Part shown: piece after piece, positions 1 to 44,645 of the stretch
How positions within the stretch are numbered: the stretch's first letter is position 1
Layout of the letters: every line of letters begins with the position of its first letter
IMG/VR virus record: IMGVR_UViG_3300049830_000036
Span: 1-44,645 of that record
DNA from: a virus
Reading direction: 5' to 3' (one strand)
DNA length: 44,645 bases
Program-made: the position numbers and the translations under genes
Notes under the pieces: model-generated
Told to the model about the DNA's origin: nothing
Database searches by the model: none
The model's input: the letters and a program-made list of their open reading frames with translations, nothing else

Positions 1-127
1 GGAATATAAAACCATGTCAGATACTCCAGTAGTTCCCCGTCGCTTTAATATGTATAAGTCTCACATCCGTTCTACTCAATTCATCTTTGGTAACCAACCT
101 GACTTTGATCCAGTACGTAATCCTATT
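1..127. repeat. 127-bp terminal repeat, copy 1 (circle join)
   Basis: These bases are repeated without a mismatch at 44519-44645. The repeat begins inside the intergenic region after the capsid gene and runs into the first structural gene. An exact 127-base overlap is what a k=127 assembler leaves at the ends of a circular contig, so this is most simply an assembly join. A true short direct terminal repeat is possible but less likely, because the join falls in the middle of an operon and not near the terminase genes. Confidence 0.95.
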
Positions 128-578: not shown

Positions 579-1211
579 GTGACAACTTTCGCTCAACTGG
601 TGGCTGATGTATACACCACTACAAACCGACCTGATCTGGTAGCAGAGACGAATCTAGCAGTTCGTAAAGCTACTATGAAACTTCATACCACTGGGTGGGA
701 TATGGAGACAGATCGGCCGAAAGGTGTGCTCTATTGGCCAGATAGAACAGAGAAAGTTGTCCCTGTTACTGCTGTAGATCCAACGCTGTACACCTATTCT
801 GTACCGATTGCTGCACCAATTCTCCGGTTCCGAGGATTGAGTTATCTGCGCCAATACACTCCAGATGTTACAGATAGATTCTTTAACTCTGTAGACTTCG
901 ATCGTTTGTTTGATGAGTATCAGGTAGAAAAGACTGATGTATATTATATGCTCGGACAGATGATTAACATTCGTTCCAGTGTAGCATTGATTGATGTACT
1001 TGTAGGTTTCTATCAGTATCCAGTAGTTACTCAGGTAGGATATTCTTCCTGGGTAGCTGATCAACTCCCTGATATGATAGTAGAGGAAGCTTGCTCTCTC
1101 ATATTTAAGATGATTGGTAAGGATGATGAATACCAGAAATACAATGCACTGTTCAAAGAGAATGCAGGAATGCTTGAAGGTCAATTCACTACACAGTCTG
1201 TGAGAACATAA
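579..1211 (+). CDS. Putative head-tail adaptor (gp11/gp4-like head completion protein)
   Basis: A 210-residue protein starting with GTG at 579, the first start in the frame with an AGGA site before it. Length, predicted helical N-terminus and position between capsid and tail genes match the podovirus adaptor proteins (T7 gp11 / P22 gp4 type) that form a ring under the portal. The residues starting MTTFAQLVADVYTTTNRPDL, followed by a long helix, are typical of this family as I remember it. The stop codon overlaps the next start (TAATG), so the two genes are translationally coupled. The functional name rests on position and general resemblance, not on a catalytic motif. Confidence 0.6.
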   Translation: MTTFAQLVADVYTTTNRPDLVAETNLAVRKATMKLHTTGWDMETDRPKGVLYWPDRTEKVVPVTAVDPTLYTYSVPIAAPILRFRGLSYLRQYTPDVTDRFFNSVDFDRLFDEYQVEKTDVYYMLGQMINIRSSVALIDVLVGFYQYPVVTQVGYSSWVADQLPDMIVEEACSLIFKMIGKDDEYQKYNALFKENAGMLEGQFTTQSVRT

Positions 1212-2251
1212 TGCCATATACTCCTGATCCTACTGACCCAACTAATCCACTAGATTCAGTGGATGCTAGCACAGCAGCTGCTGAATTTCGTGCATTGAAA
1301 GGATACATAGTAGCCGGCGTATTTCCATTTTTAACCGCCAGCAAAGCTAATGTAGGTACTGATACTACTATCCTCACTGCTAACACAGACAATACCAATG
1401 CAGCATCTGGAGCTCTGAATTATGTTCGGGTAGCTGGGGCAGCAGCTGGTGATCCCAGAACTTGGTACTCAGTAGCTGGTGCTTATACTTGGGGAGTGGG
1501 ATTAGATAACAGTGACAATGATAAATTTAAAATCAGTGCAGGTACAGATCTTGGTGTAAATACTGCTTTCACTATTGACTCTTCTTTTAGAGTTACTACA
1601 GGAGATGGTGCTAATATAGGTTCTGTAGCTCTTGCTGTTACTGGACTAGCATATACTGGCTCAGTAGATGTAATAAAGAATGCTGCTGGATTTACCTACC
1701 GCCAACTTACATCTGCAGGTGCGCATCAAACAGGATTATATACAGATGGACTTGGAGTATTGTCTCTTTATGCAGAAAGTGCTGAGCAAGTTAGACTAGC
1801 GGCTATTGCTGGTGCAGCTAGATATCTAATATTCTCAGGAAGTGTTGTTGCTGAGCCAATTATTGGTACCAGTGCTGGAGCATTGAAACTAATGCCTGCT
1901 GCAACAGGAGTAGGAATCGGAGTTGCTCCTGGGTATGGTTTGTCAGTTGGTATGTACACTGCAAGTGGAGGTTGGAATTATACTACTAGTTTTTCAGATT
2001 TGATTAATGCATCGATGCTGTTTGGTGTAAAAGCTGGCAGTGCAATTGTACAAACAGATGCTACCACTCTTGTATTAGCGGCCTCTAACACAGAATCTAT
2101 GAAGATCACTGCCGCCGGTATTAGACCAGTAAATGCAGGTGGATATCTTGCACAAGATTTGAGTCCTGGGATTAGTATCAATATCACTACAGCCAATTTA
2201 GTTGGTAAAACTATTACTGTTAAAGATGGTATCATAACAGCATTCGCTTAA
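1211..2251 (+). CDS. Tail fibre / receptor-binding-type protein
   Basis: A 346-residue protein rich in Ala, Gly, Thr and Ser with many short beta-prone segments, as in phage fibre shafts. Residues 242-303 form a module found again in the Sec-exported protein at 16179-16775 (35 of 62 residues identical by eye). The C-terminus (about 304-346) resembles the generic beta-rich ends of phage tail proteins. It is coupled to the preceding adaptor gene by TAATG and opens a cluster of small fibre-like genes, so a tail fibre or fibre adaptor role is likely. The N-terminus starts with a Pro/Asp/Thr-rich stretch, possibly the virion attachment part. Confidence 0.65.
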   Translation: MPYTPDPTDPTNPLDSVDASTAAAEFRALKGYIVAGVFPFLTASKANVGTDTTILTANTDNTNAASGALNYVRVAGAAAGDPRTWYSVAGAYTWGVGLDNSDNDKFKISAGTDLGVNTAFTIDSSFRVTTGDGANIGSVALAVTGLAYTGSVDVIKNAAGFTYRQLTSAGAHQTGLYTDGLGVLSLYAESAEQVRLAAIAGAARYLIFSGSVVAEPIIGTSAGALKLMPAATGVGIGVAPGYGLSVGMYTASGGWNYTTSFSDLINASMLFGVKAGSAIVQTDATTLVLAASNTESMKITAAGIRPVNAGGYLAQDLSPGISINITTANLVGKTITVKDGIITAFA

Positions 2252-2823: not shown

Positions 2824-3558
2824 ATGTCCGGCACTCCTATAACTGGTTTAACACCTACAGTAATTCTAAATGCAACTGATGCATTCGTAATCGCTAGACT
2901 AGGTTCGCCTAATGTTAACTATCAAATCTCTTGGAGTGCACTACAAGCATTAGTAGGTACTGGTGGTGGTGTAGGTGCGCAAGGTATACCAGGTTTAGCT
3001 GGAGAAGATGGTGAAGCTGGTATAGATGGTACTCCAGGAGTAGCAGGAACTCAAGGTATTCAAGGTATACCTGGAACTAATGGTACAATTGGTGTAAATG
3101 GTAATACTTTATTCTTCGAACCTGATCAACCTGAGGATGCAATAGTAATACCCGGGCCACCGGGATCTTCTGGAACTAATGGTGCAACTGGGCCAACTGG
3201 GCCAACTGGTGCAAGTGGACTTAGTATAGTTGGTCAGGATGGTATTGATGGTGAGGATGGTATATCAATACCTGGAGTTGCTGGAGCTACTGGTACTCAG
3301 GGAACGCAGGGATTAACTGGAGTAGCAGGTTCAATTCTATTTCTAGAACCAGATATATTTGATGATAATCCAGTAATTCCAGGCCCAATAGGTGCAACAG
3401 GTAATGCAGGAGCAACAGGTGCAGCTACAACAAATTACTCTCCTGGTACTACTTCCATTCTTACTGAAACTGCTGTACTTTTTGTCAATCATTTAAAACT
3501 CACAGGTACACAACGATTGAGTGTTGCTGGAACTGGTAGAGCAAGGATACATAACTAA
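2824..3558 (+). CDS. Collagen-like tail fibre protein
   Basis: A 244-residue protein with an N-terminal non-collagen domain (residues 1-47), then Gly-X-Y triplets over about residues 50-93, 111-150 and 151-200. The triplets are interrupted twice by the same insert, residues 94-112 and 170-188, with the pattern (F/L)xEPDxxxDxxVIPGP. Collagen-like triple helices are known in phage fibres, where they act as trimeric shafts. The inserts probably form small trimeric knobs or hinges. The C-terminal 45 residues are not collagen-like. The gene follows directly after the 76-residue gene and ends just before the next ATG, so it belongs to the fibre operon. Confidence 0.85.
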   Translation: MSGTPITGLTPTVILNATDAFVIARLGSPNVNYQISWSALQALVGTGGGVGAQGIPGLAGEDGEAGIDGTPGVAGTQGIQGIPGTNGTIGVNGNTLFFEPDQPEDAIVIPGPPGSSGTNGATGPTGPTGASGLSIVGQDGIDGEDGISIPGVAGATGTQGTQGLTGVAGSILFLEPDIFDDNPVIPGPIGATGNAGATGAATTNYSPGTTSILTETAVLFVNHLKLTGTQRLSVAGTGRARIHN

Positions 3559-10289: not shown

Positions 10290-13200
10290 ATGTTAGAAGA
10301 TTCCGGTTCTCTCCAAGCTACTACTAATCCTTCTGAGACTCCATCCACTGAGGATGGTTTTCTCTTTGGTAGTACTCCTTCTTACCTACTCGCAGCTGAT
10401 TCTCATGCAATTAGTGCAGGTAAGCCGAGTATGTTAGATCCCTCACAGTGGGGAGAGACTGCGCTGAGTGCTGGAAAATTCGGCCTAACTTCAGGAGTAG
10501 CGGCTGTAACCTCTGCTGCTAATTCTCTCATCACAGTAGGTAATTGGTTCGATGCTGATATTGAGAAGTTCTCTACAGCTGCTGCAATTCAAGGTTTAGA
10601 TGATGATCTCGGAGCATACTATAAAGCGAATCAAGCTGGGGTGGATATAGTAGGAGATATTGTAGGTAGTTTCATTCCTGGTCTTGGAGGAGTTAAACTC
10701 CTGAACTGGGGACAGAAGGTTATGCAGAGTGTGGAGAAGACTGGGAGATTAGGAGCGAACTTCACTCGTGCTACTGGTCTCCTTGCTCCTTCTAGTACTG
10801 CTCTCCTGGGTGAAGCTACTGCTGCTCAGGTGAGTGCATCTAGTGTATTCCGCATTACTGAAGCTAATACTCTTAAAGCACTAGCTTCTGGTTTTGGTCA
10901 GAATGCATTGGAAGCTGCTGCATTCGAAACTGCTGTGCAAGTAACTATGCACTCTTCTCCTATCCTTGATGGTCAGGATTATGGAGATATAGTATCTAAT
11001 GTAGCTTGGGGTGCTTTGTTTGGTGGTATTGCAGGTGGAGTTATCTCAGGTGCTAGAACTGTTGGAGAGATTAAGAAAGGTATTCGAGGTGAGGATCTGC
11101 TAAGTAAACCTTACACTCACATCACAGCTACTGCAAGTGTAAGTGATCCATTCGAGAAGATTCTCTGGGCAGTAAATGATATTCACTCTATTCCTACTCC
11201 TACAGGTGAGAGAGCAGTACAGTTCTCTTCACTTGCTGCTGAGAAGGTCTCCAAACTGAATAATGATATTCGTGGATATGTGCATGAGATTGTTGGAGGA
11301 GATAAGGAAGTAGCTAACCTCCTCGCAGACTCACTTCGCGGGATGAATAAGGAAGAAGTATTCGGAGCTGTGATGCACTTGAAAGCTAGTGCCCGTATGA
11401 CTCAGGTTACTGGAGTTGAGAAGTTGCTGAATAAGAATGCAACCTCCCTGAGTGAAGAGCAACTCGCTGCTCAGTGGAATATGAAAGTATCTCACCTGAA
11501 ACTCTGGGGTGAGGGAGCTGGAGAGGTTACTGCTGAAGGGCCGGGAGTACTAGCTTTGGCAGACACTCTTGGCAAGAATGAGATGCTCGCTGTGAGAGGG
11601 AACAAGGTTATTGCAGTTAATGCAGTCTCTGGTTCTGGGAGTAAGATCTTACACTCCTTCGACCCGAAAGTTAGTTGGAGTGCACTGGAAGCGAAGAGTA
11701 TTCAGGAAGCTGAAGCTAGATACATCTGGGCATTACATTCTCCTCCTCTAAAAGATGGTGTTACTATCCATCAGTTCGATATACCTCTGCTAGAGAAAGC
11801 GGGCAGGGAAGGTACGGAAGATGTATACATTCTCGGTGATGGTGGAGTTAAACACTATGCTCCTACACTGGATTCACAGTTTATTGAGAGTGTTAAGCGC
11901 ACTGTAGCTACCCGCCTTAAATATGCTACTGAAAATAAACAGATCGGTACTGATCCAGTAGCTGTAGAGACGAAACTGAAACAGATGCTTGGTATTAACT
12001 TCGAGGTTATTGATGAACCCGGAGTTATTGGTCAGTGGGTTCGCGGGAAAGTACACTGGAGTAAACAGGCACAAGCTATTCAGATGGATAGAAGAGCATT
12101 AACTTCTGTACCTTTATCTCGTCTTGTACAAACTATTAAGCATGAGGAAGGTCATAGCATCTTCGATACCATGCTTGACATTGGTATGATTCCTAATGAA
12201 CTCCTGCCACAAATCCGCGTAGAAGCAGAAGCACTAAGTAGGAAGATGAGACCTCAACACTGGCAGAATGTAGATAAAGATTATATTGCTGGTAATACAC
12301 AAGCATATTCTTATCTCCGTAAAGACCATGAACTTATGGCAGATACATTCTCCTACTTTGCTCAGCATCCAGGAGATTTACCTCTTGCTCCTACATTCAA
12401 CTCCGTAGCTGGCCATTTAATTCGGCCTCTCGATCAGAGTGTAATAGACTCTCTTAATCTCCAGGTGAAGAAACTAACTGAAGGAGAGATTGCAGCAGTA
12501 ACCAATACCCATCTCTCTTGGCTCAATCGCTCAGATCCTAGTGAGAAAGGTATGTTAGCTCTCCAGACTGCTAATGAAGAGTACATCGCTCGTAATGTTA
12601 AGTCCGGCCTACTCACTTCCCCTGAACAAGCTACTACTCCTGCATACTTCAAACCTCAGAATGTGAAATTAGGTTATGATGTACAAGCTATGCAAGATAC
12701 CAATGGCCACGTACTGGAAGGTATGACATATCTGAAGCAACGGCAGAAATTGTATCAAGCTACTATTGACAATGTATTTGCGAAAGGAGTAGGTGACAGG
12801 CTCGGAACCTTCACCACATTCACAGATGAAGATACTATTCGTACTTCTCGTCTTGGTACTGGTTCCGTTCTTACTGGTGGCGCCGGTGGCAATTATGGTG
12901 ATCCAGCATCTAAAGCAGAGTCTATCGGAGTAGCACTCTCTGAGCTTAAGAGAGCTAGAGTCTCAGAACTCAGTGAAGCTCTAGAATCATCCCGGTATGC
13001 GATTAAGAATTCAGAGCCAGCGAAACTGGAATATGCTACACTGTATGAGCAACTGCGTACATCTTCTGAGAACTACATTCTCCGTACCACTAAAGATGAG
13101 AATGGGAATATAATTAAAGCACAGGCGGTAAATAGGAAACTTGCTAATCCTGGAACTGGAAGGATTGAAGATGCAAGGATTCCTCCTGTGATTGAGATTA

Positions 13201-15692
13201 CGAATATGGAACTTGCACAGTACTTGCAAGCTCACATTGCTACTAATGATCTGCGCCAAGTTACTAAGAGCGATATACGAGGTGCTCAGAGTATGGCTAC
13301 TCAGAGAGATCTTAGCGGGAATATCTATCTTCCTCCTCCAGATCCTAAACAGTTTCAGCATTTCGCATTTGTGAGAGATACCAGTGTGACTAGTACTGGT
13401 CATGTATCTATGCTACATGCAGCTACTGAAGAGCAGCTTGCAGCCATGATCACTAAGGTACGCACTTCCTTTGGCGATACATTTGAAGTGACTACGAAGG
13501 AGCAGCAAGCTGCATTCCACAAAGCAAGAGGGGATTACCAGTACGATCTTGGGTTGAATGAGAACTATATTGATACTGCCATTAAGCGGAAAGGTATTTC
13601 TAACTTCTTCCCTCGTACTGATGGTGATAAACTTCTTGATCAGCATTTCGAGTGGGCTATTAGGCAGGAGCAGGGAGTAGCTACTGAACTTGTAGAACTT
13701 AAGTACTCTAAACCTATCACTGAACTCCGCAGGCAAGGACAGCAGTTTACAGATATCGCTACTTCTCGCTACACTGGAACTGGTGCAGCTGCTAAAGCAG
13801 AGGTGAAGAATCCCTATGAAGATATTGTTCGTACCATGCTTGATGTATCTAAGACTGCTGAGTTTCCTCTCTGGACAGCAGCGAACAGACTCGCTGAGAC
13901 TAGTGTATCTAAACTCGCTAGCACCTTAGGCAACCTCTGGGCAGGTACTAAGAGCACAGCAGATCTGGTGCAGGTAAATGATGCACTCGCTAAGGCAGGA
14001 ATAAAATCGGCCTACTATGATGCAGCTACTGAACTGCTAGCAAATCATACTGCTCCTAAACCTGTACTCTCAGATTTCATTCTCAAAGCTTCTGGTATCC
14101 TTAGTACTCTAGTTCTTCGTGCTGATCCTCTCAATGCACTTAACAATGGCTTAGGTGCTAATATTCTCCTAGCTGCTGAAGCAAACCATGTGTGGAAATA
14201 TGCAATGAAAGGGGATACAGATATTGCAGGCAAGCTCGCAGGACTGGGAACAATTAGAGTACCTGGTACTGATTCCACCGTGCGCTCACCTGGGAAACTA
14301 ATTGCTCAGGCATACTCAGATTGGTTCTCTGCTTTTGGAGCCGCTGGAGAAGTTAAGAATGAACTTAAAACTCTCTACCAGCAGAATGGTTGGATGACTT
14401 CCATTTCTGAGCAGATGAAAGCTACCTTTGAACATCTTATAGTGAAAGGTAATGAGACTCCTGCTGAACTGCAAACCATGCTCCAGAAATCTTGGGGAGC
14501 TATGAAGAGTTTGGGAGATGTAGCTGAGCGAGCTACTGGGAATAGAATGGCTGAGGAGATGAATAGATTCGTAGCTGCTAGGACTATGCATCTTATGGCT
14601 GAACCTCTAGTAGAAGCTGGAGAGATGAGCACGAAAGAGTTGGTATCATATATTAATACCTTTGTATCCCGCACTCAGGGAAATAGGATTGCATCTCAGA
14701 GACCAGTGATGTTTCAGGGACCACTAGGCCATAGTATCTCTCTCTTCCAAACCTACCAACTCAACCTGATGCAACAGATGTTCCGGTATGTAGCAGACGG
14801 GGGAGTTAAAGATGCGGCCTTACTCCTCGGATTGCAAGGTAGCATCTATGGTATGAATGGCTTACCTGCATTCAATGCAATTAATACTCACCTAGCAGGG
14901 AATGCATCTGGGAATACTGCACACACTGATATCACTGCCACTACCTTTGATGTAGCAGGTAAAGAAGCTGGAGATTGGATTCTTTATGGTATGGCATCTA
15001 ATCTCTTTCTGCATCCTGATCTCAAAGTGAACATGTATTCCAGGGGAGATATTAATCCTAGGAATAACACTATCATTCCAATCAATCCAGCAGATACTCC
15101 AATCTATCAAGGTGCTACTAAATTCTTTGGTTCCATTTTTGACACAGTATCTAAGATTGCAGGTGGTGGGGATGTATGGAGATCAATGCTTCAGGGGATT
15201 GAACATAATGGTATCTCTCGCCCACTCGCAGGACTGGCACAGAGTATGGAAGCAGCAGTTTCTACTACTGGCACTGCATACTCCACAGATGCGAAAGGCT
15301 CCATTGTAAACCAGAATGATTTCCTGTCCCTAACTACTCTCTCCCGCATCGCAGGTGGCAAGCCTCTTGATGAAGCTATTGCTCGCGATGCTGTATTCCG
15401 CATTAATTCCTATCATGCGAAAGATATAGCTGAGACTAAACTTCTTGGTGGAGCTATGCGAACTACCATGATAGAAGGTAGAGATCCAGATCTGGAGCAA
15501 CAGGATAGATTCTTAGAAGCATATGTAAAGCATGGTGGTAAGCAGGAAAATTTTAATAAGTTCATGATACAGCAGTACAAGCAGGCGAACACCTCACAAG
15601 CGAATAAGATATTTGAGAATCTTCGGAGTCCATTTGCTGTGAGTATGCAAAAAGTAATGGGTGGTTATCAACTTGATGATTTCAATAACTGA
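10290..15692 (+). CDS. Giant internal virion protein with zinc-metallopeptidase motif
   Basis: An 1800-residue protein, the largest in the genome. It carries an HEEGH motif (H618, E619, H622; HExxH class) followed by a third-ligand candidate, E681, in the segment HELMAD, as in gluzincin-type zinc peptidases. Glycine-rich hydrophobic segments near residues 115-140 and 240-255 could insert in membranes. A region near 1480-1500 (FQTYQLNLMQQMFRYVA) resembles internal virion proteins of other short-tailed phages. The size matches T7 gp16-like channel proteins. I see no lytic transglycosylase motif, so here the enzymatic part may be a peptidase that helps the genome cross the envelope. The peptidase call is by motif only. 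Confidence 0.7.
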   Translation: MLEDSGSLQATTNPSETPSTEDGFLFGSTPSYLLAADSHAISAGKPSMLDPSQWGETALSAGKFGLTSGVAAVTSAANSLITVGNWFDADIEKFSTAAAIQGLDDDLGAYYKANQAGVDIVGDIVGSFIPGLGGVKLLNWGQKVMQSVEKTGRLGANFTRATGLLAPSSTALLGEATAAQVSASSVFRITEANTLKALASGFGQNALEAAAFETAVQVTMHSSPILDGQDYGDIVSNVAWGALFGGIAGGVISGARTVGEIKKGIRGEDLLSKPYTHITATASVSDPFEKILWAVNDIHSIPTPTGERAVQFSSLAAEKVSKLNNDIRGYVHEIVGGDKEVANLLADSLRGMNKEEVFGAVMHLKASARMTQVTGVEKLLNKNATSLSEEQLAAQWNMKVSHLKLWGEGAGEVTAEGPGVLALADTLGKNEMLAVRGNKVIAVNAVSGSGSKILHSFDPKVSWSALEAKSIQEAEARYIWALHSPPLKDGVTIHQFDIPLLEKAGREGTEDVYILGDGGVKHYAPTLDSQFIESVKRTVATRLKYATENKQIGTDPVAVETKLKQMLGINFEVIDEPGVIGQWVRGKVHWSKQAQAIQMDRRALTSVPLSRLVQTIKHEEGHSIFDTMLDIGMIPNELLPQIRVEAEALSRKMRPQHWQNVDKDYIAGNTQAYSYLRKDHELMADTFSYFAQHPGDLPLAPTFNSVAGHLIRPLDQSVIDSLNLQVKKLTEGEIAAVTNTHLSWLNRSDPSEKGMLALQTANEEYIARNVKSGLLTSPEQATTPAYFKPQNVKLGYDVQAMQDTNGHVLEGMTYLKQRQKLYQATIDNVFAKGVGDRLGTFTTFTDEDTIRTSRLGTGSVLTGGAGGNYGDPASKAESIGVALSELKRARVSELSEALESSRYAIKNSEPAKLEYATLYEQLRTSSENYILRTTKDENGNIIKAQAVNRKLANPGTGRIEDARIPPVIEITNMELAQYLQAHIATNDLRQVTKSDIRGAQSMATQRDLSGNIYLPPPDPKQFQHFAFVRDTSVTSTGHVSMLHAATEEQLAAMITKVRTSFGDTFEVTTKEQQAAFHKARGDYQYDLGLNENYIDTAIKRKGISNFFPRTDGDKLLDQHFEWAIRQEQGVATELVELKYSKPITELRRQGQQFTDIATSRYTGTGAAAKAEVKNPYEDIVRTMLDVSKTAEFPLWTAANRLAETSVSKLASTLGNLWAGTKSTADLVQVNDALAKAGIKSAYYDAATELLANHTAPKPVLSDFILKASGILSTLVLRADPLNALNNGLGANILLAAEANHVWKYAMKGDTDIAGKLAGLGTIRVPGTDSTVRSPGKLIAQAYSDWFSAFGAAGEVKNELKTLYQQNGWMTSISEQMKATFEHLIVKGNETPAELQTMLQKSWGAMKSLGDVAERATGNRMAEEMNRFVAARTMHLMAEPLVEAGEMSTKELVSYINTFVSRTQGNRIASQRPVMFQGPLGHSISLFQTYQLNLMQQMFRYVADGGVKDAALLLGLQGSIYGMNGLPAFNAINTHLAGNASGNTAHTDITATTFDVAGKEAGDWILYGMASNLFLHPDLKVNMYSRGDINPRNNTIIPINPADTPIYQGATKFFGSIFDTVSKIAGGGDVWRSMLQGIEHNGISRPLAGLAQSMEAAVSTTGTAYSTDAKGSIVNQNDFLSLTTLSRIAGGKPLDEAIARDAVFRINSYHAKDIAETKLLGGAMRTTMIEGRDPDLEQQDRFLEAYVKHGGKQENFNKFMIQQYKQANTSQANKIFENLRSPFAVSMQKVMGGYQLDDFNN

Positions 15693-15711: not shown

Positions 15712-16164
15712 ATGAAATGGTTTAAAGTTCTCTTAGCTACATTGCTTTTGGGAGTATCTCAAGCGGCCCTGTGTCAATCAGCAGTAATCCGTGGTGAGAG
15801 TACACCTGGGAATTATGTCAATGTAAAGACTGATTCTACAGGGAATCTGTATACTGTAGGAGTAGTGAGTGGTAGTGCTGGAGTTAATAACCTTACCTCT
15901 GCTACTAATACTGCACTTACAGTCACAGGAAATGCAGCAACCTTTGGCTCTGCTAGTTCTACTCGCAAGTACATGCAGATCCAGAACAATGATACTACTG
16001 CAATTATTTGGGTAAATTTCGCTGGTACTGCTACAGTAGCCAATGGTATCAAACTCGGCCCAGGACAGATATATGCTCCACTCCTTCCACCTACTACTAC
16101 CTTTAGTGCCATTGCTTCGGTGGCTACTGCATCTGGTACTGTAATCTTCACTGATGGACAATAA
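15712..16164 (+). CDS. Sec-exported phage virion-like beta-sandwich protein
   Basis: A 150-residue protein with an AGGT-containing site 8 bases before ATG 15712. Residues 1-19 are a Sec signal peptide (two Lys, then LLATLLLGV, then SQA). A Cys at position 21 is not in a good lipobox because the residue before it is Leu. The mature part ends with a fold common in phage virion proteins: a strand with YMQIQNND, then IWVNFAGTA, then an IKLGPGQ turn. It lies between the internal virion genes and the lysis genes, next to a second exported protein. Export of such a domain suggests a periplasmic or surface role in infected cells and not simple virion assembly. Confidence 0.7.
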   Translation: MKWFKVLLATLLLGVSQAALCQSAVIRGESTPGNYVNVKTDSTGNLYTVGVVSGSAGVNNLTSATNTALTVTGNAATFGSASSTRKYMQIQNNDTTAIIWVNFAGTATVANGIKLGPGQIYAPLLPPTTTFSAIASVATASGTVIFTDGQ

Positions 16165-16178
16165 GGAGCACACATACC

Positions 16179-16775
16179 ATGAAGAAACTTCTTAGTACAC
16201 TTCTTCTCGCATTAGTCTCATTCGGTGCAGTAGCTCAGATCACTGGGCCACAATATAATCCAGCAGCCGTAGCTATCACTGGTGGATCTATAAATGGTGC
16301 AACAATTGGAGCTACTGTTAGAGCTGATATATTTGCCAACTCAGGTAGTTTCAATGCCGGACTAACTAGTTCTGGAGGATCAGCTGCTTCTTATGGATTA
16401 GTCGTCAGTAGATATACTCTAGCCGGTGGTTGGAATTATCTAGCATCTCTGTCAGATTCTGTTAATGCTACAATTCTTATTGGCATGAAGTCTGGCAGTG
16501 TAGTTTATCAAGCTGACGCTACTACTACTAGTATAGCTCCAAGTAATACAGAATCTCTTAAAATAACTACAGCATCTACATCTGCGTTAAATAAAATCTT
16601 TCCTGGAACTGATGCCGGTGCCTTTCAATCAACTGCCGGTATCTATGGCGGGTCGGGTGTACCTTCTAATGCTAATGGAAACAATGGAGATTACTATTTT
16701 CGCAGTGATACTCCGGGAACTGCATTGCAAAGGATATATGTTAAATCGGCTGGAGCTTGGGTAGGAATTATCTAA
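16179..16775 (+). CDS. Sec-exported paralogue of the tail fibre module
   Basis: A 198-residue protein with a textbook Sec signal peptide: MKK, hydrophobic LLSTLLLALVSFG, cleavage after AVA (residue 19). Mature residues 72-133 align with residues 242-303 of the fibre protein at 1211-2251, with 35 of 62 residues identical by eye (shared GGWNY, DATT and SNTES segments). The C-terminus (about 155-198) resembles the end domain of tail fibres ('NGNNGDYYFRSDTPG... RIYVKSAGAW'). It lies just upstream of the endolysin. I infer an exported fibre-like protein, possibly a receptor-masking (superinfection or progeny-release) factor; that role is not shown by sequence. Confidence 0.75.
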   Translation: MKKLLSTLLLALVSFGAVAQITGPQYNPAAVAITGGSINGATIGATVRADIFANSGSFNAGLTSSGGSAASYGLVVSRYTLAGGWNYLASLSDSVNATILIGMKSGSVVYQADATTTSIAPSNTESLKITTASTSALNKIFPGTDAGAFQSTAGIYGGSGVPSNANGNNGDYYFRSDTPGTALQRIYVKSAGAWVGII

Positions 16776-16777
16776 TC

Positions 16778-17233
16778 ATGATAGATTCCCGCAAACTAGA
16801 AGATCTGCATCCTGAATTCCGCTCTCGTCTTATCTCCTTTCTATCTCACTACCAACAAGTTACTGGAATAGAAATACTGTGGACTTCTACCTACAGAGAT
16901 GTGGAGATGCAAAATGCCTTATATGCTCGTGGACGCACACTTCCTGGAACTCGTGTCACTAATGCTTGTGGCGGTGAATCTGCCCATCAGTATCGTATTG
17001 CTGCTGATGGTTATCCGCTCATAGGCGGTAAACCGCTATTCTCTACTGATGCAAATCACGACGGTAAGTTAGACGAGGAATGGGCAGTGTACGGGAAACT
17101 GGCCGTAGAACATGGACTAGAGTGGGCAGGGAATTGGGCTAACTTCAGAGAATATCCACATGTTCAATACACCGGCTCATATACTCTCCACGATATTATT
17201 GCTAATCCGAAATTTTTAGACTCACTTACATAG
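16778..17233 (+). CDS. Endolysin, L-Ala-D-Glu peptidase type (M15/VanY-like)
   Basis: A 151-residue cytoplasmic protein without signal peptide. It has the M15 zinc site: H70 and D77 in SAHQYRIAAD (SxHxxxxAxD) and H128 in YPHVQ, with R40 upstream. Known members (T5 Lys, ListeriaA500-type) cut the L-Ala-D-Glu bond of the peptidoglycan stem. Between the metal ligands, residues 91-101 (DANHDGKLDEE) look like an EF-hand calcium loop; I recall that T5 endolysin is calcium-stimulated through a similar loop. It sits one gene before the holin, which supports lysis. Start: ATG 16778, two bases after the stop of the previous gene. Confidence 0.9.
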   Translation: MIDSRKLEDLHPEFRSRLISFLSHYQQVTGIEILWTSTYRDVEMQNALYARGRTLPGTRVTNACGGESAHQYRIAADGYPLIGGKPLFSTDANHDGKLDEEWAVYGKLAVEHGLEWAGNWANFREYPHVQYTGSYTLHDIIANPKFLDSLT

Positions 17234-17244
17234 GAGTTATTAAC

Positions 17245-17778
17245 ATGGATATGTCTTGGCTTAAAACAATAGCACCCACAGTGGCATCAGCTCTAGGCGG
17301 CCCACTGGCAGGAATAGCAGTAACTGCTCTTGGTTCTGCATTAGGCTGGACAGATACTACGAAAGAGAAAGTAACAGATATGTTACAATCTGGTAATATG
17401 ACTGGAGAACAGTTAACTGCCGTAAAACAGGCAGAACTAGTACTGAAACAGCATGAGTCCGATAATAACTTTAAATTCGCGGAACTGGAAATTCGAGATC
17501 GGGAATCTGCTAGAGCTAGAGAGATTGCTACTAAAGATACCACTCCTACCATTCTTGCTTGGATTATCATTGGTACTAGTATGGCAGCAGGTATGCTCAT
17601 TCTCTCAGGCACTACCTCTGAAGTATTCAAAGATGCCACTACAGCTGCTACGGCTGGAACTGTAATTGGCTATCTATTCAATGAAGCTAAGCAGGTACTT
17701 GCATACTACTTCGGCTCCTCTGCTGGGAGTAAGGCAAAGGACGATGTGATAGCAGATCAAGTTAATAACAGTAAATAA
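17245..17778 (+). CDS. Holin, 3TM/GTA type
   Basis: A 177-residue protein. Hydrophobic segments lie near residues 11-33 (Gly/Ala-rich), 105-125 (AWIIIGTSMAAGMLIL) and 135-147, with a charged helical middle (55-95) rich in Glu/Lys/Arg. This matches the 3TM phage holin family (PF11351 type) as I know it. ATG 17245 follows an AGGAG site 11 bases upstream and lies 11 bases after the endolysin. It is the last gene of the rightward transcript; a strong terminator follows at 17799. Confidence 0.8.
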   Translation: MDMSWLKTIAPTVASALGGPLAGIAVTALGSALGWTDTTKEKVTDMLQSGNMTGEQLTAVKQAELVLKQHESDNNFKFAELEIRDRESARAREIATKDTTPTILAWIIIGTSMAAGMLILSGTTSEVFKDATTAATAGTVIGYLFNEAKQVLAYYFGSSAGSKAKDDVIADQVNNSK

Positions 17779-17798
17779 TGTTACAAAATCTGGACAAT

Positions 17799-17828
17799 AA
17801 AAAAGCCACCTTAATCGGTGGCTTTTTT
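17799..17828. terminator. Bidirectional intrinsic terminator between converging operons
   Basis: The stem GCCACC (17805-17810) pairs with GGTGGC (17817-17822) around a 6-base loop, with A6 before and T6 after, so a U-tail exists in both directions. It sits 20 bases after the holin stop and 21 bases before the end of the leftward lipoprotein gene, exactly where the two arms converge. Confidence 0.95.
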
Positions 17829-17849
17829 ATTTCCTACTTTTCTTATCTG

Positions 17850-18074
17850 CTATCCCATGCACTTATGCCAAGCTTTACCCATTGCAAGATCTTTAGATCC
17901 TACATCATTCGGCTCGGCATACTGTGCTTGATAAGCAGCTTCTGCTACCTTAAGACACTTAGCTCGCTGTGCTGCTGTACTGCCCGGATATTTATCAAGC
18001 CAGTATGGGATACCTTCAGTTGCACAGCCTACTGAGAAAAGCATTACTGCGAGAAGTACGAAAAATTTAAGCAT
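17850..18074 (-). CDS. Small lipoprotein, last gene of the leftward operon
   Basis: A 74-residue protein with a lipoprotein signal peptide: MLKFF, hydrophobic VLLAVMLF, then SVGC with the lipid-attachment Cys at position 17. The 57-residue mature part is polar and has two further Cys. A GGAG site precedes the ATG. Size and class recall phage superinfection-exclusion lipoproteins (T5 Llp is 77 aa) and also small o-spanins. It is not proline-rich as many Rz1 proteins are, and it lies in the early-strand operon, so superinfection exclusion is my preferred guess at low certainty. Confidence 0.7.
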   Translation of the reverse strand: MLKFFVLLAVMLFSVGCATEGIPYWLDKYPGSTAAQRAKCLKVAEAAYQAQYAEPNDVGSKDLAMGKAWHKCMG

Positions 18075-33870: not shown

Positions 33871-34338
33871 TTATTCAGGTATTACAAAATTTATATCTGC
33901 TGGTATATTATGTGAGCAGATATAAATTAAATCTTGTTTTTGTTTTTCTCTTTCAGCAGTAACAGCTACACCAATAGCAGTAGTAGTAGCAGCAGCATCA
34001 GCAGCTACACCAGCAGCAGCATCAGCAGCAGCAGCAGCAGCAACATAAGCAGCATAAGCATAAGCAGTAGCATAAGCAGTAGCAACATTGGTAGTATAAT
34101 TGTTTTTAATATGCTTAACTCTACTAACTGCTCTGTTAATCACCCAAAGTTTTTTACTCCAATCTGTTTTAGTTGTACGATAACACCAGATTGCATCTTG
34201 GATATTATTCGATTGTGCGATAGTTGCAAACGAGATAAGTTCATTATCTGCTTCTGTCTTACCAAGATACCTACACAGTCTAGTGTATCCTCCTGAACAG
34301 GGTAAACATTCGCGGATTGCATTTAATGTAGTGAACAT
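33871..34338 (-). CDS. Imm5-like N-domain protein with alanine-rich C-terminal region
   Basis: A 155-residue protein. Residues 1-75 (LNAIRECLPCSGGYTRLCRY, then LGKTEADNELIS and NIQDAIWCYR) match what I know of a widespread phage and bacterial group whose members continue into long Ala-rich helical repeats, related to the Imm5-like immunity family. Residues 85-128 are nearly all Ala, Tyr, Thr, Val, Asp, encoded by GCN/TAY triplet runs. Start: ATG 34338 with AGGAG; the frame reaching 34398 has no site. It has its own regulated promoter at 34405-34433 and a hairpin inside its last codons. An anti-host or counter-toxin function is an inference. Confidence 0.7.
   Translation of the reverse strand: MFTTLNAIRECLPCSGGYTRLCRYLGKTEADNELISFATIAQSNNIQDAIWCYRTTKTDWSKKLWVINRAVSRVKHIKNNYTTNVATAYATAYAYAAYVAAAAAADAAAGVAADAAATTTAIGVAVTAEREKQKQDLIYICSHNIPADINFVIPE
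33888..33928 (-). terminator. 14-bp hairpin in the 3' end of the CDS, possible embedded terminator
   Basis: A perfect 14-bp inverted repeat (33888-33901 with 33915-33928) with a 13-base loop lies in the last codons of the alanine-rich protein gene. On the minus strand it is followed by TTTTG. The stem is AT-rich, so it is a modest terminator at best, or an RNA stability element. Confidence 0.5.
33958..34085 (-). repeat. Triplet-repeat tract (GCN/CAG type) in a CDS
   Basis: Runs of GCT/GCA triplets, including an uninterrupted CAG-type run of six units near 34024-34042, encode the Ala-rich region. Units are in frame, so slippage would change length without breaking the frame. Confidence 0.8.
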
Positions 34339-34387
34339 GGTATTACTCCTGATAGAATCATTGATGAACGGTTGAGAAATGTACAAA

Positions 34388-34424
34388 ACTCTAGACAACA
34401 GTATAGGATACCATTGTCTAGAGT
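34388..34424. promoter_or_regulatory. 11-bp inverted repeat overlapping a promoter (operator candidate)
   Basis: Arms 34388-34398 and 34414-34424 are perfect reverse complements (ACTCTAGACAA). They flank the -10 box of the promoter at 34405-34433: the right arm lies in the spacer and the left arm at the expected transcript start. This is a classical repressor-operator layout. It could also form a hairpin followed by TTTTG on the minus strand. Confidence 0.65.
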
Positions 34425-37645: not shown

Positions 37646-39244
37646 ATGAAACAGGAAGATGTACAGCGCACAGTCAGTGCAGCTTCCATAGAGGCGAAAC
37701 TAGGATTAGAAGGATATGACACACGCACCTCAGATCAGCGAACTAAGATTTCAAATAGCTCTGAAACTTCTACTGGCGTTGAATCGCCATATAGATCTAC
37801 TGAAGCGGAAGATTTAGCTCGCACAGACCCAGACTTTCTTGCTGGTCTGGCAATGCCACTGACATTTCTCTACCTGTGGCCGTCAGTGTTGCGAGCAGTA
37901 TGGGAATGGCTTACGACATATGTACAAAAGTCCAGAGATTTTAGTCAACTACTGCTGGGACTACCTCGCGGATTTGGTAAAACTACTCTCATTAAGATCT
38001 TCATTCTCTACTGCATTCTCTTCACAAAACGAAAGTTTATACTTGTAATCAATGCAAGAGAAGATCTAGCAATAAACACAGTATCTGATGTCTGCCGTAT
38101 GCTTGACGAACCTAATATGGTTCGCTTGTTCGGTGACTGGAAGATTGGAGTAGAGAAGAACACTGCTACTATTAAGATCTTTGGTTTCAGAGGGCGTAGC
38201 ATCATTCTCTGGGCAGCAGGAGTAGATACCGGTATTCGTGGTATCAATGTAGTTAATGAGCGCCCAGATGTAATGATTTTTGATGATATACAATCTCGCA
38301 AAGATGCAGATAGCAAGGTAGTATCTGAAGCTCTAGAAGTAAATATCATTGGTACTGCTATGAAAGCGAAGTCTCCTCATGGCTGTCTGTTCGTATTCAT
38401 AGGTAATATGTATCCAACTCCGCATTCAATACTCCGGAAGTTGAAAGGTAATCCGAACTGGGTTAAATTCATTGCAGGAGGAATACTAGCTGATGGCACT
38501 AGCCTTTGGGAAGAACTACAGCCAATTAAGCAACTACTAGCAGAGTACCGGAATGATGCTAGTATGGGACACGGAGAGATCTTTCGTGCAGAAGTTCTGA
38601 ATGATGAGAATGCAGCAGTTAACACCTCCATTGATCTCAATCTCGTACCACCTTATAAGTACGATGATACTGAACCAGCAACTCATAAGTTTGTAATAGT
38701 AGATCCATCCTCCGATAAAGCTAATGCTGACCTTGTAACTATCGGTTTAGTAGAAGTATATGACACCAAACCTGTACTTCGGAAGGTTCTAGAAGATAAA
38801 CTATCTCCTGGTGAGATAGTTAAAGAATCAATCCGCATGTGTGTGGAACAGCAGTGCAGAGTAGTAGTTTTCGAAGCACAGGGCGCTCAGTATCAGTACC
38901 TTTACTGGTTTAAAAAGACTTGTGAGGAACTAGGTATATATGGCTTAGAAGCCCTAGAAGTATATTCCGGTCAAATGAGTAAGAATGGCCGAATTATCAA
39001 CATGCTGAAGATGTACATTAAAGGTGAGATCTGGTGTCACCCTGACTGTAAGATACAGGCACATGACCAGATTAAGAACTTTAATCCAGCTAAGCGAGAT
39101 AATAATGATGGTATCTTGGATGTAATGACCTACGCTCCAAAAGTACTAGAAGAATATGGAGATTACATTCAAAGTGTGACTAATGTATTTGAAATGCAAG
39201 AGTTTGAAACTACAAAAGTGTGGGATTCTAACACATCATTCTGA
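37646..39244 (+). CDS. Terminase large subunit
   Basis: A 532-residue packaging motor. ATPase domain: Walker A GLPRGFGKTT (residues 105-114) and Walker B VMIFDD (D213, D214). Nuclease domain: D353 (VIVDPSSD), E410 (VVFEAQ) and D488/D492 (NDGILDV), the acidic triad of RNase H-fold terminase nucleases. It pumps DNA through the portal and cuts concatemers. No upstream in-frame start with a better site was found; the ribosome site before ATG 37646 is weak. The first 55 residues are Ser/Thr-rich. Confidence 0.95.
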   Translation: MKQEDVQRTVSAASIEAKLGLEGYDTRTSDQRTKISNSSETSTGVESPYRSTEAEDLARTDPDFLAGLAMPLTFLYLWPSVLRAVWEWLTTYVQKSRDFSQLLLGLPRGFGKTTLIKIFILYCILFTKRKFILVINAREDLAINTVSDVCRMLDEPNMVRLFGDWKIGVEKNTATIKIFGFRGRSIILWAAGVDTGIRGINVVNERPDVMIFDDIQSRKDADSKVVSEALEVNIIGTAMKAKSPHGCLFVFIGNMYPTPHSILRKLKGNPNWVKFIAGGILADGTSLWEELQPIKQLLAEYRNDASMGHGEIFRAEVLNDENAAVNTSIDLNLVPPYKYDDTEPATHKFVIVDPSSDKANADLVTIGLVEVYDTKPVLRKVLEDKLSPGEIVKESIRMCVEQQCRVVVFEAQGAQYQYLYWFKKTCEELGIYGLEALEVYSGQMSKNGRIINMLKMYIKGEIWCHPDCKIQAHDQIKNFNPAKRDNNDGILDVMTYAPKVLEEYGDYIQSVTNVFEMQEFETTKVWDSNTSF

Positions 39245-39262
39245 GAAAGTGACACTAAACCT

Positions 39263-41353
39263 ATGACCGCAGCTACTCCATTCATTCTCCCTAAAAAAGT
39301 GCAAGAAGGTATTATCCAATACAATCGTGCATGTTACTCTCTATTGAATACTCAGTGGAATATACGCTTGCAGATGCAGCAGGTGGATCTAGCATACATG
39401 AGAGAGAATGACTTTACTACTGTTAATAGGCGCGCTCAGATTGCTAACCAATATGGAGACTCCACCAAACTCCGTAATGTAACTATCCCTATCGTACTTC
39501 CACAAGTAGAGAACTTCACTGCTCACATGTGCAGTGTATTTCTATCAGGTAATCCTATATTCGATGTAGTAGCATCCCCAGAGTACGAAGATGCTGCTAT
39601 CCAGATGTCTACTATTCTTGAGAACAATCAAATCCGAGGTGGTTGGACTAGAGAGATAGAACTGTTCTTCCGCGACTCTGCGAAGTATAATATCTCATTC
39701 CTAGAAGCTTCCTGGGCTAGAGAGATTACAGCAGTTCTGGAGACTGATCTATCCTTCTCCGCTTCCCAAGGTAAACCTAAAGAAGTAGTGTGGGAAGGTA
39801 ATCGTATCAAACGCTGGGATCCTTACAACTCCTTCTGGGATACTCGTGTATCTCCTGTAGATCTTCCCAAGAAAGGTGAGTTCGCAGGTACAGTAGAGCT
39901 AATGGGCCGGGTGCAACTGAAACAATTCATTGCCACTCTCCCAGACAAACTTACAGAGAATCTCACTGAGGCATTTGAATCCGGAATTGGCTTTGTCTCA
40001 GGTGCGAATATTGGTATTGGTGGAGCTGAATCCTATTTTGTTCCTCAGATCAATCCTAATGCGATTCTTAATTACAATCCTCAGTGGGGAACTGATTGGA
40101 TGATGTGGGCACAGGCTTCTGGAACTGTGCCAAAAATCAATTATAAAAATATGTACACAGTTACTACAATCTATGGTCGCATCCTTCCTGCCGATTTCGG
40201 TATGCGAGTTCCTTCACCTAACACTCCTCAGGTATGGAAGTTTATCATTATTAATAACCAGGTCCTTATCTACGCAGAGCGCCAGACTAATGCACATGGA
40301 ATGATTCCAATACTAGTAGGCTCTCCTATGGAAGATGGTCTCGCATACCAGACTAAATCATTTGCAAATAATGTGCGCACGCAACAAGAAATCGCATCTG
40401 CACTTTGGACTTCTATTATCCAATCTCGTAGGAGAGCTATCAGTGACAGAAAACTCTTTGACCCTTCTAAGGTTCGCGAAGTGGATATCAACTCTGATAA
40501 TCCTAGTGCCGCTATTCCTGTTCGTCCTGCTGCTTATGGTAAACCATTAGATCAGGCAGTCTACGCATTCCCTTACCGTGATGATCAAGCTGGTATCATC
40601 TTTCAGGAGTCTGATCGCTTAGAAGGTATGGCAGATAAGACTTCTGGATTCAATCGCGCCCAGCAAGGTCTGTTCACGAAGGGTAATAGGACTAAGCAGG
40701 AGTTTGATACTATCACAGCTCATGCTGATGCAAGACCTCAGATGACTGCACTGAAAATGGAAGTGCAGGTATTTGCACCACTGAAGGAGATACTGAAGTT
40801 AGATGTACTTCAGTATCAGGGTGGAGGGATTAGTCTATTCAGTCCTAGCAAGTCGAGAGGAGTTAAGATTGATCCAGTAGCACTCCGGAAAGCTGTATTT
40901 ACATTCAAGGTGAGCGATGGTCTCATTCCTACAGAGAAAGAGATTGATGGAGATGCATTCGCTACTGCTCTACAAGCAATCGCATCTCAACCTTCCTTAG
41001 GTGCAGGATACAACATCACTCCTATGTTTTCCTATCTTATGAAAACTCAAGGAGCTAAACTCTCTACCTTTGAAAAGTCTCCTGAGCAAATAGCATTTGA
41101 ACAAGCAAATGGAGCATATCAGCAAACTCTTAGACTCATTGGTGAACTAGCATTGAAACAAGGTATTGATCCTAGTAAGATTCAGTGGCCACCAGCTCCT
41201 ACACCAGAACAGTATAAGTATGATCCTAGTAAGCCGATTATTCCTGATACTTCCACAGGTACATCTCTCCTAGCAGCTGCACTATCTCCACCCACAGCAG
41301 CAGCACAAACCTCAGAAGTACCATCAAATGCAGGAGAAGGTAATGTCACATAG
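39263..41353 (+). CDS. Portal protein
   Basis: A 696-residue protein directly after the large terminase, the standard portal position. An N-terminal helical region with 'YSLLNTQWNIRLQMQQVDLA', a central wing/stem region with 'RAISDRKLFDPSKV', and the segment 'DKTSGFNRAQQGLFTKGNRT' match podovirus portals. The C-terminal 60 residues are Pro/Thr/Ser/Ala-rich, as in portals with flexible tails. It forms the dodecameric entry ring of the head. Confidence 0.85.
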   Translation: MTAATPFILPKKVQEGIIQYNRACYSLLNTQWNIRLQMQQVDLAYMRENDFTTVNRRAQIANQYGDSTKLRNVTIPIVLPQVENFTAHMCSVFLSGNPIFDVVASPEYEDAAIQMSTILENNQIRGGWTREIELFFRDSAKYNISFLEASWAREITAVLETDLSFSASQGKPKEVVWEGNRIKRWDPYNSFWDTRVSPVDLPKKGEFAGTVELMGRVQLKQFIATLPDKLTENLTEAFESGIGFVSGANIGIGGAESYFVPQINPNAILNYNPQWGTDWMMWAQASGTVPKINYKNMYTVTTIYGRILPADFGMRVPSPNTPQVWKFIIINNQVLIYAERQTNAHGMIPILVGSPMEDGLAYQTKSFANNVRTQQEIASALWTSIIQSRRRAISDRKLFDPSKVREVDINSDNPSAAIPVRPAAYGKPLDQAVYAFPYRDDQAGIIFQESDRLEGMADKTSGFNRAQQGLFTKGNRTKQEFDTITAHADARPQMTALKMEVQVFAPLKEILKLDVLQYQGGGISLFSPSKSRGVKIDPVALRKAVFTFKVSDGLIPTEKEIDGDAFATALQAIASQPSLGAGYNITPMFSYLMKTQGAKLSTFEKSPEQIAFEQANGAYQQTLRLIGELALKQGIDPSKIQWPPAPTPEQYKYDPSKPIIPDTSTGTSLLAAALSPPTAAAQTSEVPSNAGEGNVT

Positions 41354-41636
41354 AGTAGATACCTCATTCACTCGCTATGTATTCACTCCTGAGGAGGAGA
41401 TGAATGCTTGCCTATTCAATGATCTTCAACTTCAATGGTTACAGAATGAACTAGCTCTGTCTGCTGAGACTAAACTCGCTCTGGAAGTAGATTCAACCAA
41501 TGTAACTAAGTTCATACAAGATGAAGCATTCAATGCAGGTAAGATTCAATTCATCCAATACGCATTACAGTGTCACGAAGATTCAGTTGCTAAACTGAAA
41601 GTAATCCAAGCAGCACAACAATCCCAACCGCAGTAG
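41343..41636 (+). CDS. Small head-region protein
   Basis: A 97-residue helical protein starting at ATG 41343, with an AGGAGAAGG site inside the end of the portal gene (11-base overlap). It contains aromatic and Gln-rich helices (NDLQLQWLQNELALSAETKL). Similar small frames after the portal are common in phages of this layout; the function is not known, possibly assembly. Confidence 0.7.
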   Translation: MSHRVDTSFTRYVFTPEEEMNACLFNDLQLQWLQNELALSAETKLALEVDSTNVTKFIQDEAFNAGKIQFIQYALQCHEDSVAKLKVIQAAQQSQPQ

Positions 41637-41675
41637 TAACACAACCTAACCATCAAACCACAGGAGTAATAAATC

Positions 41676-42473
41676 ATGGCCGGCGTAGCTGATCTCTTTA
41701 AAAACTTTGCAAACGTAGTAGTAGGTAATAGTCCTCAGAATCCTGCACTTCCCGGATTACCTAATGGTACTCCCAATCCTGCGAATCCTCCTGCCTCTGT
41801 GGTAGCTAATCCAGGAGTTCCGAATCCAGGTAATGAACCGAATCCAAAACCAGGAGATTCTCCTCAACTATCTTCTGGGCCTAATGCCAATGCAGCCTCA
41901 GGTGCAACCCCTCTCGATCAGTTCAAGGAAATATGGCAAACTCCTGAGAATGCAGTAGATCCAAATGCCCCCATTACTTTTACAGCAGATCCTGCTAAAC
42001 TTCTGGCAGCTTCTAAGAACTTAGATTTCAAACAGTTCATTACTCCAGAAGTAACAGCTCGTATCGCTGCTGGCGGTGAAGATGCAGTAAAAGCAATGGC
42101 AGAAGCAATGAACATGGTAGCACAAGGCACGTATGCACAATCAGCCTCAGCTACTACAAAGATTGTAGAAAAAGCAATTCAATCCGCGCAAGAGAAATTC
42201 CTCGCACAAATCCCATCGCTGGTTAGAAATGGCACTGTCTCAGAGAGTTTACGGACAGAGAATGCTAAGTTTAACCATCCCGCCGTAGCACCAGTCATCA
42301 AGAATCTAGAAAAACAGATGGCTATCAAATTCCCCAACTCCTCAGCTTCAGATCTAACTAAGATGGCACAGGACTATTTCACTGCCCTAGCCTCTGAGTT
42401 CACACCACCTCCACAGAAAGATCCTAATGCACGAGATGATAAATCTCAGGATTTTTCTCAGTATTTCCAGTAA
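41676..42473 (+). CDS. Putative scaffolding protein
   Basis: A 265-residue protein with a Pro/Asn/Gly-rich N-terminal region (residues 20-75, repeated NPxNP-like segments) and then a helical part, ending in a charged tail (KDPNARDDKSQDFSQYF). Low complexity plus helical C-terminus, between portal and major capsid genes, is typical of scaffolds. It has a GGAG site before the ATG. No protease motif was noticed. Confidence 0.7.
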   Translation: MAGVADLFKNFANVVVGNSPQNPALPGLPNGTPNPANPPASVVANPGVPNPGNEPNPKPGDSPQLSSGPNANAASGATPLDQFKEIWQTPENAVDPNAPITFTADPAKLLAASKNLDFKQFITPEVTARIAAGGEDAVKAMAEAMNMVAQGTYAQSASATTKIVEKAIQSAQEKFLAQIPSLVRNGTVSESLRTENAKFNHPAVAPVIKNLEKQMAIKFPNSSASDLTKMAQDYFTALASEFTPPPQKDPNARDDKSQDFSQYFQ

Positions 42474-42515
42474 CATTTTCGTACTATCCATTTAAATCTT
42501 TTAAGGAATTAAACT

Positions 42516-43169
42516 ATGTCTCTCTTGAAACCTGTAGTATATGATGCTGGTATGCAACGTCAAGTTGCTCCTGGCGATGCAGTAGGAGCAGGTGAAGCTA
42601 TTGACACCTCAATGGTTACTGTAGGTGCAATGACTATCCTTGCTGCTAATATCCTTGCTGGTATTATCCAACGTGGTGGTGCACAAGGTGGTGGTTTTGT
42701 TGACACTACTGATACTTCCACTAATTTGCTCGCTGGTATGGCGCAAGGTGCAGGTATTCAGAATGGTACTTCCTTCCGCTTTATTATCTCTAACCTTGCT
42801 GCCACTGGCCAGACTGAGACTATTGCTGGCGGCACTGGAGTTACTGCTTCTGGTATCCTCACTATCGCCACTGGTTCATGGGCTGAATTCCTGCTCACAG
42901 TAGTGAATGGTACTGCTGGTTCTATCCAGACCGCAGCTACAGTGAACGGTTCCGCAGTGATTACTGGTATGACTCAGGCAGCTACCAATGCAATTGCTCC
43001 TGGTATGCTTGTTACTGGTACTGGTATCCCAGCTGCTGCTACTATTCTCTCAGTGCAAGCCGGAGTTGGTTTCACTCTCTCCGCCAATGCTACTGCCACC
43101 AACAACCCAGTTGCTCTGACCTTCTTGCCTACTATGACACTGAAACGTGTCCGTGGTGGTACGAACTAA
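42516..43169 (+). CDS. Putative head decoration protein
   Basis: A 217-residue Ala/Gly/Thr-rich beta protein between scaffold and major capsid. The middle contains 'GGTGVTASGILTIATGSWAEF' and 'TGMTQAATNAIAPGMLVTGTGIP', which look like Ig-like or beta-roll decoration domains on phage heads. The N-terminal segment (LLKPVVYDAGMQRQVAPGDAVGAGEAID) resembles that of phage head decoration proteins. Function is inferred. Confidence 0.65.
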   Translation: MSLLKPVVYDAGMQRQVAPGDAVGAGEAIDTSMVTVGAMTILAANILAGIIQRGGAQGGGFVDTTDTSTNLLAGMAQGAGIQNGTSFRFIISNLAATGQTETIAGGTGVTASGILTIATGSWAEFLLTVVNGTAGSIQTAATVNGSAVITGMTQAATNAIAPGMLVTGTGIPAAATILSVQAGVGFTLSANATATNNPVALTFLPTMTLKRVRGGTN

Positions 43170-43218
43170 GCCCACCTACTTTCACTAATCTTACTAACTC
43201 TCTAAAGGACTCGCTAAC

Positions 43219-44518: not shown

Positions 44519-44645
44519 GGAATATAAAACCATGTCAGATACTCCAGTAGTTCCCCGTCGCTTTAATATGTATAAGTCTCACATCCGTTCTACTCAATTC
44601 ATCTTTGGTAACCAACCTGACTTTGATCCAGTACGTAATCCTATT
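44519..44645. repeat. 127-bp terminal repeat, copy 2
   Basis: Identical to bases 1-127. See the first copy. The genome unit is therefore 44,518 bp. Confidence 0.95.
44532..44645 (+). CDS. Partial duplicate of the first gene (5' end)
   Basis: The first 38 codons of the gene at 14-565, cut by the window end. It is not a second gene; it reflects the circular overlap. Confidence 0.95.
   Translation, partial: MSDTPVVPRRFNMYKSHIRSTQFIFGNQPDFDPVRNPI

Follow-up and report, generated by a model that had tools for sequence, protein, structure and literature searches.

A Predicted Sec-Exported Protein Built of Tail Fiber Modules in the Late Operon of an Environmental Phage

Introduction

Tailed-phage fibers are thought to fold and attach to the particle in the cytoplasm. 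Ordinary tail fibers carry a virion-side part at the N terminus, lack a signal peptide, and contain few cysteines (0 to 1 in the eight that we checked). Shaft and linker modules are found in phage tail fiber and minor tail proteins, among them the PHROG tail fiber families and proteins of Rhizobium phages AF3, RL38J1, and others. The receptor-blocking superinfection-exclusion lipoproteins T5 Llp, T1-type Cor, and S. thermophilus Ltp are also phage encoded; they are exported and are unrelated to fibers. T5 Llp is periplasmic; it blocks the receptor and keeps phage from adsorbing to fragments of lysed cells (PMC9586334). In Porphyromonas gingivalis phages, signal-peptide proteins follow the Bacteroidetes Q rule (PMC10367356).

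Here we describe a gene at positions 16179 to 16775 of the window, by which we mean the whole 44,645-base stretch of DNA that was analyzed. Its product has the shaft and linker modules of the fiber families above, but unlike ordinary fibers, the class to which it belongs begins with a signal peptide. The purpose that we propose for it is that of Llp, Cor, and Ltp; however, it lacks a lipobox, exceeds them in size, and consists of fiber modules. It resembles the P. gingivalis phage proteins in being Sec addressed with a Q after the cleavage site, as are 47 of the 49 Cys-pair proteins described below, and it differs from them in its fiber modules, since the sections of that article considered here report no fiber or virion module (PMC10367356). 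A literature search confined to open-access papers returned no paper on exported fiber proteins of tailed phages.

Results and Discussion

The first and last 127 bases of the window (1-127 and 44519-44645) form an identical direct repeat, and the contig is therefore probably a complete circularized genome. Its late region starts at terminase and capsid (37646-44439) and continues across the contig ends as far as a gene for a giant internal virion protein of 1800 aa (10290..15692, plus strand; phrog_16165; homologs in 20 of 25 related records). This is followed by 15712-16164, 16179-16775, an M15/VanY-type endolysin gene (16778..17233, plus strand; Pfam PF13539, E 2.5e-9; phrog_2649 endolysin, E 7e-21), and a possibly holin-related gene (17245..17778, plus strand; phrog_1544). 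The endolysin gene starts 2 nucleotides after 16179-16775. A strong intrinsic terminator with a 15-pair stem and a T tail (17796..17831, plus strand) ends the operon. Fredfastierviridae-like podoviruses (Pseudomonas phage PaMx41, Polaromonas phage Tiera, and Aeromonas phage P5) have the same late-gene order ending in the giant virion protein, and the window terminase is 31 to 33% identical to those of such cultured phages. No comparable exported protein follows the giant gene in PaMx41, Tiera, or P5.

The gene at 16179..16775 (plus strand) starts with ATG, encodes 198 aa, and is preceded by a strong ribosome-binding site, AAGGAG, about 10 nucleotides upstream. Signal peptides were called by a heuristic scan for a positive n-region, an uncharged h-region, small residues at -3 and -1, and a ribosome-binding site upstream. 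The first-pass annotation of this DNA had claimed a textbook Sec signal peptide cut after AVA, and the scan bears this out. Residues 1 to 19 (16179..16235, plus strand; heuristic score 3.5) show the full n-, h-, and c-region layout with a signal peptidase I site at the translated N terminus, reading MKKLLSTLLLALVSFGAVA followed by Q20, with MKK, an uncharged hydrophobic stretch, and AVA before the inferred cleavage site. Only three ORFs in the window reach a heuristic score of at least 3.0: this one, its upstream neighbor at 15712-16164, and a minus-strand ORF at 17850-18074. The last of these lies at the end of a minus-strand operon, beside the late terminator, and encodes a 74-aa putative lipoprotein (MLKFFVLLAVMLFSVGC followed by ATEG...) that may act as a spanin or as an exclusion lipoprotein.

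For the 16179-16775 product, two described identities were rejected. An Llp/Cor-type lipoprotein does not fit because the predicted cut falls between AVA and Q, with no lipobox Cys at +1 and no Cys in the entire 198 aa. A spanin does not fit because there is neither the lipobox of an o-spanin nor the transmembrane segment and coiled coil of an i-spanin; instead, a cleavable-type signal peptide is followed by fiber-like sequence.

Judged by its modules, the whole mature product is fiber-like. Residues 32 to 44 (16272..16310, plus strand) carry the motif AITGGSINGATIG, which recurs in 121 ORFs on other viral contigs; almost none of these ORFs has a signal peptide. Residues 67 to 138 (16377..16592, plus strand) form a module common to a virion fiber of the same phage. 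Residues ∼156 to 194 (16644..16760, plus strand) form a GDYYF...WVG module (GNNGDYYFRSDTP...YVKSAGAWVG) with hits to phrog_30699 (E 6e-6) and to the collagen-like fiber L001 and with weak matches to tail fiber and minor tail proteins of cultured phages. The first-pass annotation was silent on the first and third of these modules and on the exported upstream gene. The product thus has the shaft or tip modules of a tail fiber and lacks the N-terminal virion-attachment domain, in whose place the signal peptide stands. AlphaFold gave a pLDDT of 37 for this protein alone and of 35 for the neighbor (three sequences), values too low for a reliable model.

What is the origin of the shared module? The window phage also encodes ordinary, nonexported fibers, one collagen-like at 2824-3558 and one of 346 aa at 1211..2251 (plus strand), and the latter holds the second copy at residues 237 to 308 (1919..2134, plus strand). 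BLASTP aligned the two copies with 39 of 72 residues identical (54%, E 4e-21). For the core of this alignment, residues 72 to 133 against 242 to 303 of the fiber, the earlier count of 35 identities becomes 36 of 62. The alignment also outscored shuffled sequences, with a Smith-Waterman score of 204 against a mean of 52 (SD, 8.4; maximum, 94; 2000 shuffles). At the DNA level, the module is only 61% identical between the two genes (132 of 216 positions), which indicates that the duplication is old rather than recent. When the full protein was compared by tblastn with 50,697 phage records, no match was obtained at E 0.01, and a scan of viral contigs with the shared module alone found no relative; in the records and contigs searched, neither copy matched anything but the other. 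These alignments make it plausible that the module derives from the phage's own fiber. The earlier proposal that it was taken from that fiber is strengthened by the mutual matches and qualified by the kind of module involved, which is of the shaft type and not a proven receptor-binding tip.

In the 1211-2251 fiber, residues 1 to 38 are 71% identical to the N terminus of a 464-aa protein in the relative G014, and this shared, anchor-like domain is most likely what attaches the fiber to the virion; residues 77 to 141 have weak matches to tail-fiber proteins. The exported protein has no counterpart of this domain.

The gene directly upstream, at 15712..16164 (plus strand), encodes a second predicted exported protein of 150 aa, with a signal peptide, an RGExTPGxY module, and a C-terminal virion-type domain. 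It starts with MKWFKVLLATLLLGVSQAALCQSAVIRGESTPGNYVNV, has GGAGG 7 nucleotides before its ATG, and has homologs in two relatives. In these, G001 and G003, a protein with a signal peptide and the RGE module also follows the giant gene directly (L116:377-1324 and L117:375-911), and a search with the signal-peptide-plus-RGE alignment recovered only these two again. The C-terminal half of the G003 protein is ∼29% like proteins without a signal peptide that other relatives have at the same site (L118, E 1e-4; L121, E 2e-3). Among the 18 relatives in which the site after the giant gene is present, such an exported protein was found only in G001 and G003 and a small lipoprotein in two others, and the slot is therefore accessory and variable. 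The two small lipoproteins (L123, oriented 323-520, and L125:320-529) both contain a YGPVG motif.

Proteins that combine a signal peptide with fiber modules were also found in other phages. A signal peptide directly precedes AITGGSINGATIG in two of the 121 ORFs, as a fusion to the AITGG fiber module in L157:495-1319 (plus strand) and L200:1967-3886 (minus strand); the L200 gene lies between terminase and portal. A Cys-bearing variant of a common tail-fiber motif served as the lead for a wider scan, in which viral contigs from IMG/VR, which are environmental assemblies, were searched with the pattern C[PA]TRPxGDxxNxCASTAF. Because the pattern itself requires the Cys pair, it is the signal peptide that counts as an independent observation in this class. 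The scan returned 49 contigs in 44 distinct contexts, with several near-duplicates, and heuristic calls placed a signal peptide immediately before the motif in 46 of them. Of the remaining three proteins, one is truncated where its contig ends, and the N termini of the other two are hydrophobic but contain no basic residue. Q follows the inferred cleavage site in 47 of the 49. Among eight cultured-phage fibers with the ordinary motif, none has a signal peptide or Cys at those positions, and the Cys count overall is 0 to 1.

In the Cys-pair phages, the exported genes are part of the structural operon, where most stand between the capsid and the tail genes, often as tandem cassettes, with three in a row plus a fiber in G030 and several in G031 and G032. 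Their products have a median of 18 Cys per 1000 residues versus 8 in a crude background set, an enrichment that is expected because the periplasm is oxidizing. This disulfide argument holds for the exported class and not for the Cys-free 16179-16775 protein. Among the exported proteins, one has a C1q domain, another has a pectate-lyase domain, and one matches the C-terminal domain of a tail-fiber family (E 1e-15). Sequence comparison thus indicates that predicted exported fiber proteins recur in unrelated environmental phages. A nonexported fiber was recognized in G032 and not in G030. The exported proteins of the soil phages have no close nonexported paralog in the same genome, with one exception in G042, so the own-fiber paralogy seen in the window is not general.

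Two of these loci are worth describing individually. At L342:13199-17625 (IMGVR_UViG_3300010396_000017), flanked by the major capsid and tail-adaptor genes, are genes for four signal-peptide proteins, one of which is a 599-aa fiber with a C1q domain; no other fiber gene was recognized in this 46-kb genome. L348:6296-17811 (minus strand) encodes several exported fiber-like proteins, one of which contains 26 Cys and a pectate-lyase domain, and beside them lies a nonexported tailspike-like protein (L348:9661-11700).

The signal peptide, the ribosome-binding sites, the exported neighbor, the same-site exported homologs in two relatives, and the recurrent class together support the first-pass claim that a fiber-module protein is exported, and we regard export of the 16179-16775 product as highly probable. 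Module homology, the signal peptide, operon position, and recurrence can be read from the DNA; export, multimerization, the ligand, and the benefit are what we infer from them. The reading that we favor, with a probability of roughly 0.4, is a Sec-exported soluble fiber that acts outside the cytoplasm by occupying receptors and freeing progeny. The protein would be made late, in the same operon as the endolysin and together with the exported virion-module protein of 15712-16164. With a signal peptide in place of a virion-attachment domain, it would not be built into the particle in the cytoplasm; rather, it would pass to the periplasm, probably fold there as a multimer, and be released at lysis. 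The free fiber would most likely bind host surface ligands, possibly LPS, capsule, or outer-membrane proteins, and this binding may make progeny less likely to readsorb to debris and to cells that are already infected. Occupation of ligands at and after lysis is suggested by the loss of the virion anchor together with release alongside the endolysin, and T5 Llp, which protects progeny from receptors on lysed fragments (PMC9586334), provides a precedent for the purpose.

Receptor blocking, superinfection exclusion, or freeing of progeny from debris, the role first proposed for this protein, is by our analysis one of two leading options; given export, a receptor- or ligand-occupying role falls somewhat short of an even bet. 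A location in the late operon beside the endolysin is more readily reconciled with action at lysis or later than with early superinfection exclusion, to which late expression is ill suited. Also counting against a free fiber, the shared module is shaft-like, and the exported sets hold decoration-like modules as well, beyond what receptor blocking alone explains. The lack of a recognized nonexported fiber in G030 would fit an exported protein that is the real receptor-binding protein.

More broadly, we tentatively propose, at a little under even odds, that many environmental podovirus-like phages Sec-export sets of virion-surface proteins (fibers and tailspike-like and decoration-like modules, often disulfide bonded) for use outside the cytoplasm, where they would serve as free decoys or complete the surface of the virion upon lysis. 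If true, this would break the rule that tailed phages make their surface proteins, and attach them, in the cytoplasm. A recurrent exported class in late structural operons would mean that receptor-binding material is staged outside the cytoplasm, either for protection of progeny from receptors on debris or for virion finishing at lysis. Such a class predicts disulfide-bonded, secretable phage receptor-binding proteins that would have value as reagents and cautions that homology to a fiber is no proof of location in the virion.

A close rival, which we consider rather unlikely, is that the protein is an exported virion part, held in the periplasm until holin and endolysin open the cell and then joined to the particle, so that part of the surface of the virion would be finished outside the cytoplasm. 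This would account for exported sets that are of virion-surface types and are encoded in the structural operon, with capsid genes on one side and tail genes on the other, for the exported C1q-domain fiber of G030, where no other fiber gene was recognized, and for a decoration-like module that is exported in two unrelated clades (G001 versus G026, 42%, E 5e-12) and links the window clade with the soil phages. However, the signal peptide replaces the anchor rather than preceding it, which leaves no known attachment domain, and dilution on lysis would demand fast, tight binding. Moreover, the window phage has its ordinary nonexported fibers, and we know of no tailed phage that completes its virion with an exported part.

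A lysis accessory is quite improbable. The exported pair would in this case act with the endolysin and its neighbor on the cell envelope, for example, by loosening the outer membrane, as could be suggested by the 2-nucleotide gap to the endolysin gene and by the small lipoproteins that follow the giant gene in two relatives. The protein nevertheless has none of the lipobox, transmembrane segment, or coiled coil of spanins, fiber modules have no known lytic role, and the exported genes of the soil phages lie between capsid and tail genes, away from the endolysin.

Least probable is that these are ordinary minor virion proteins, not exported, whose N-terminal hydrophobic helix works inside the virion, as the virion-operon position and module homology might suggest, since the full signal-peptide layout with small residues before Q is present in the 16179-16775 product, its neighbor, G001, G003, L157, L200, and 46 of the 49 Cys-pair proteins, and the exported class is enriched in Cys.

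Elsewhere in the window, a minus-strand ORF at 33871-34398 contains a long run of CAG/GCA-type repeats that encodes an Ala/Tyr-rich stretch.
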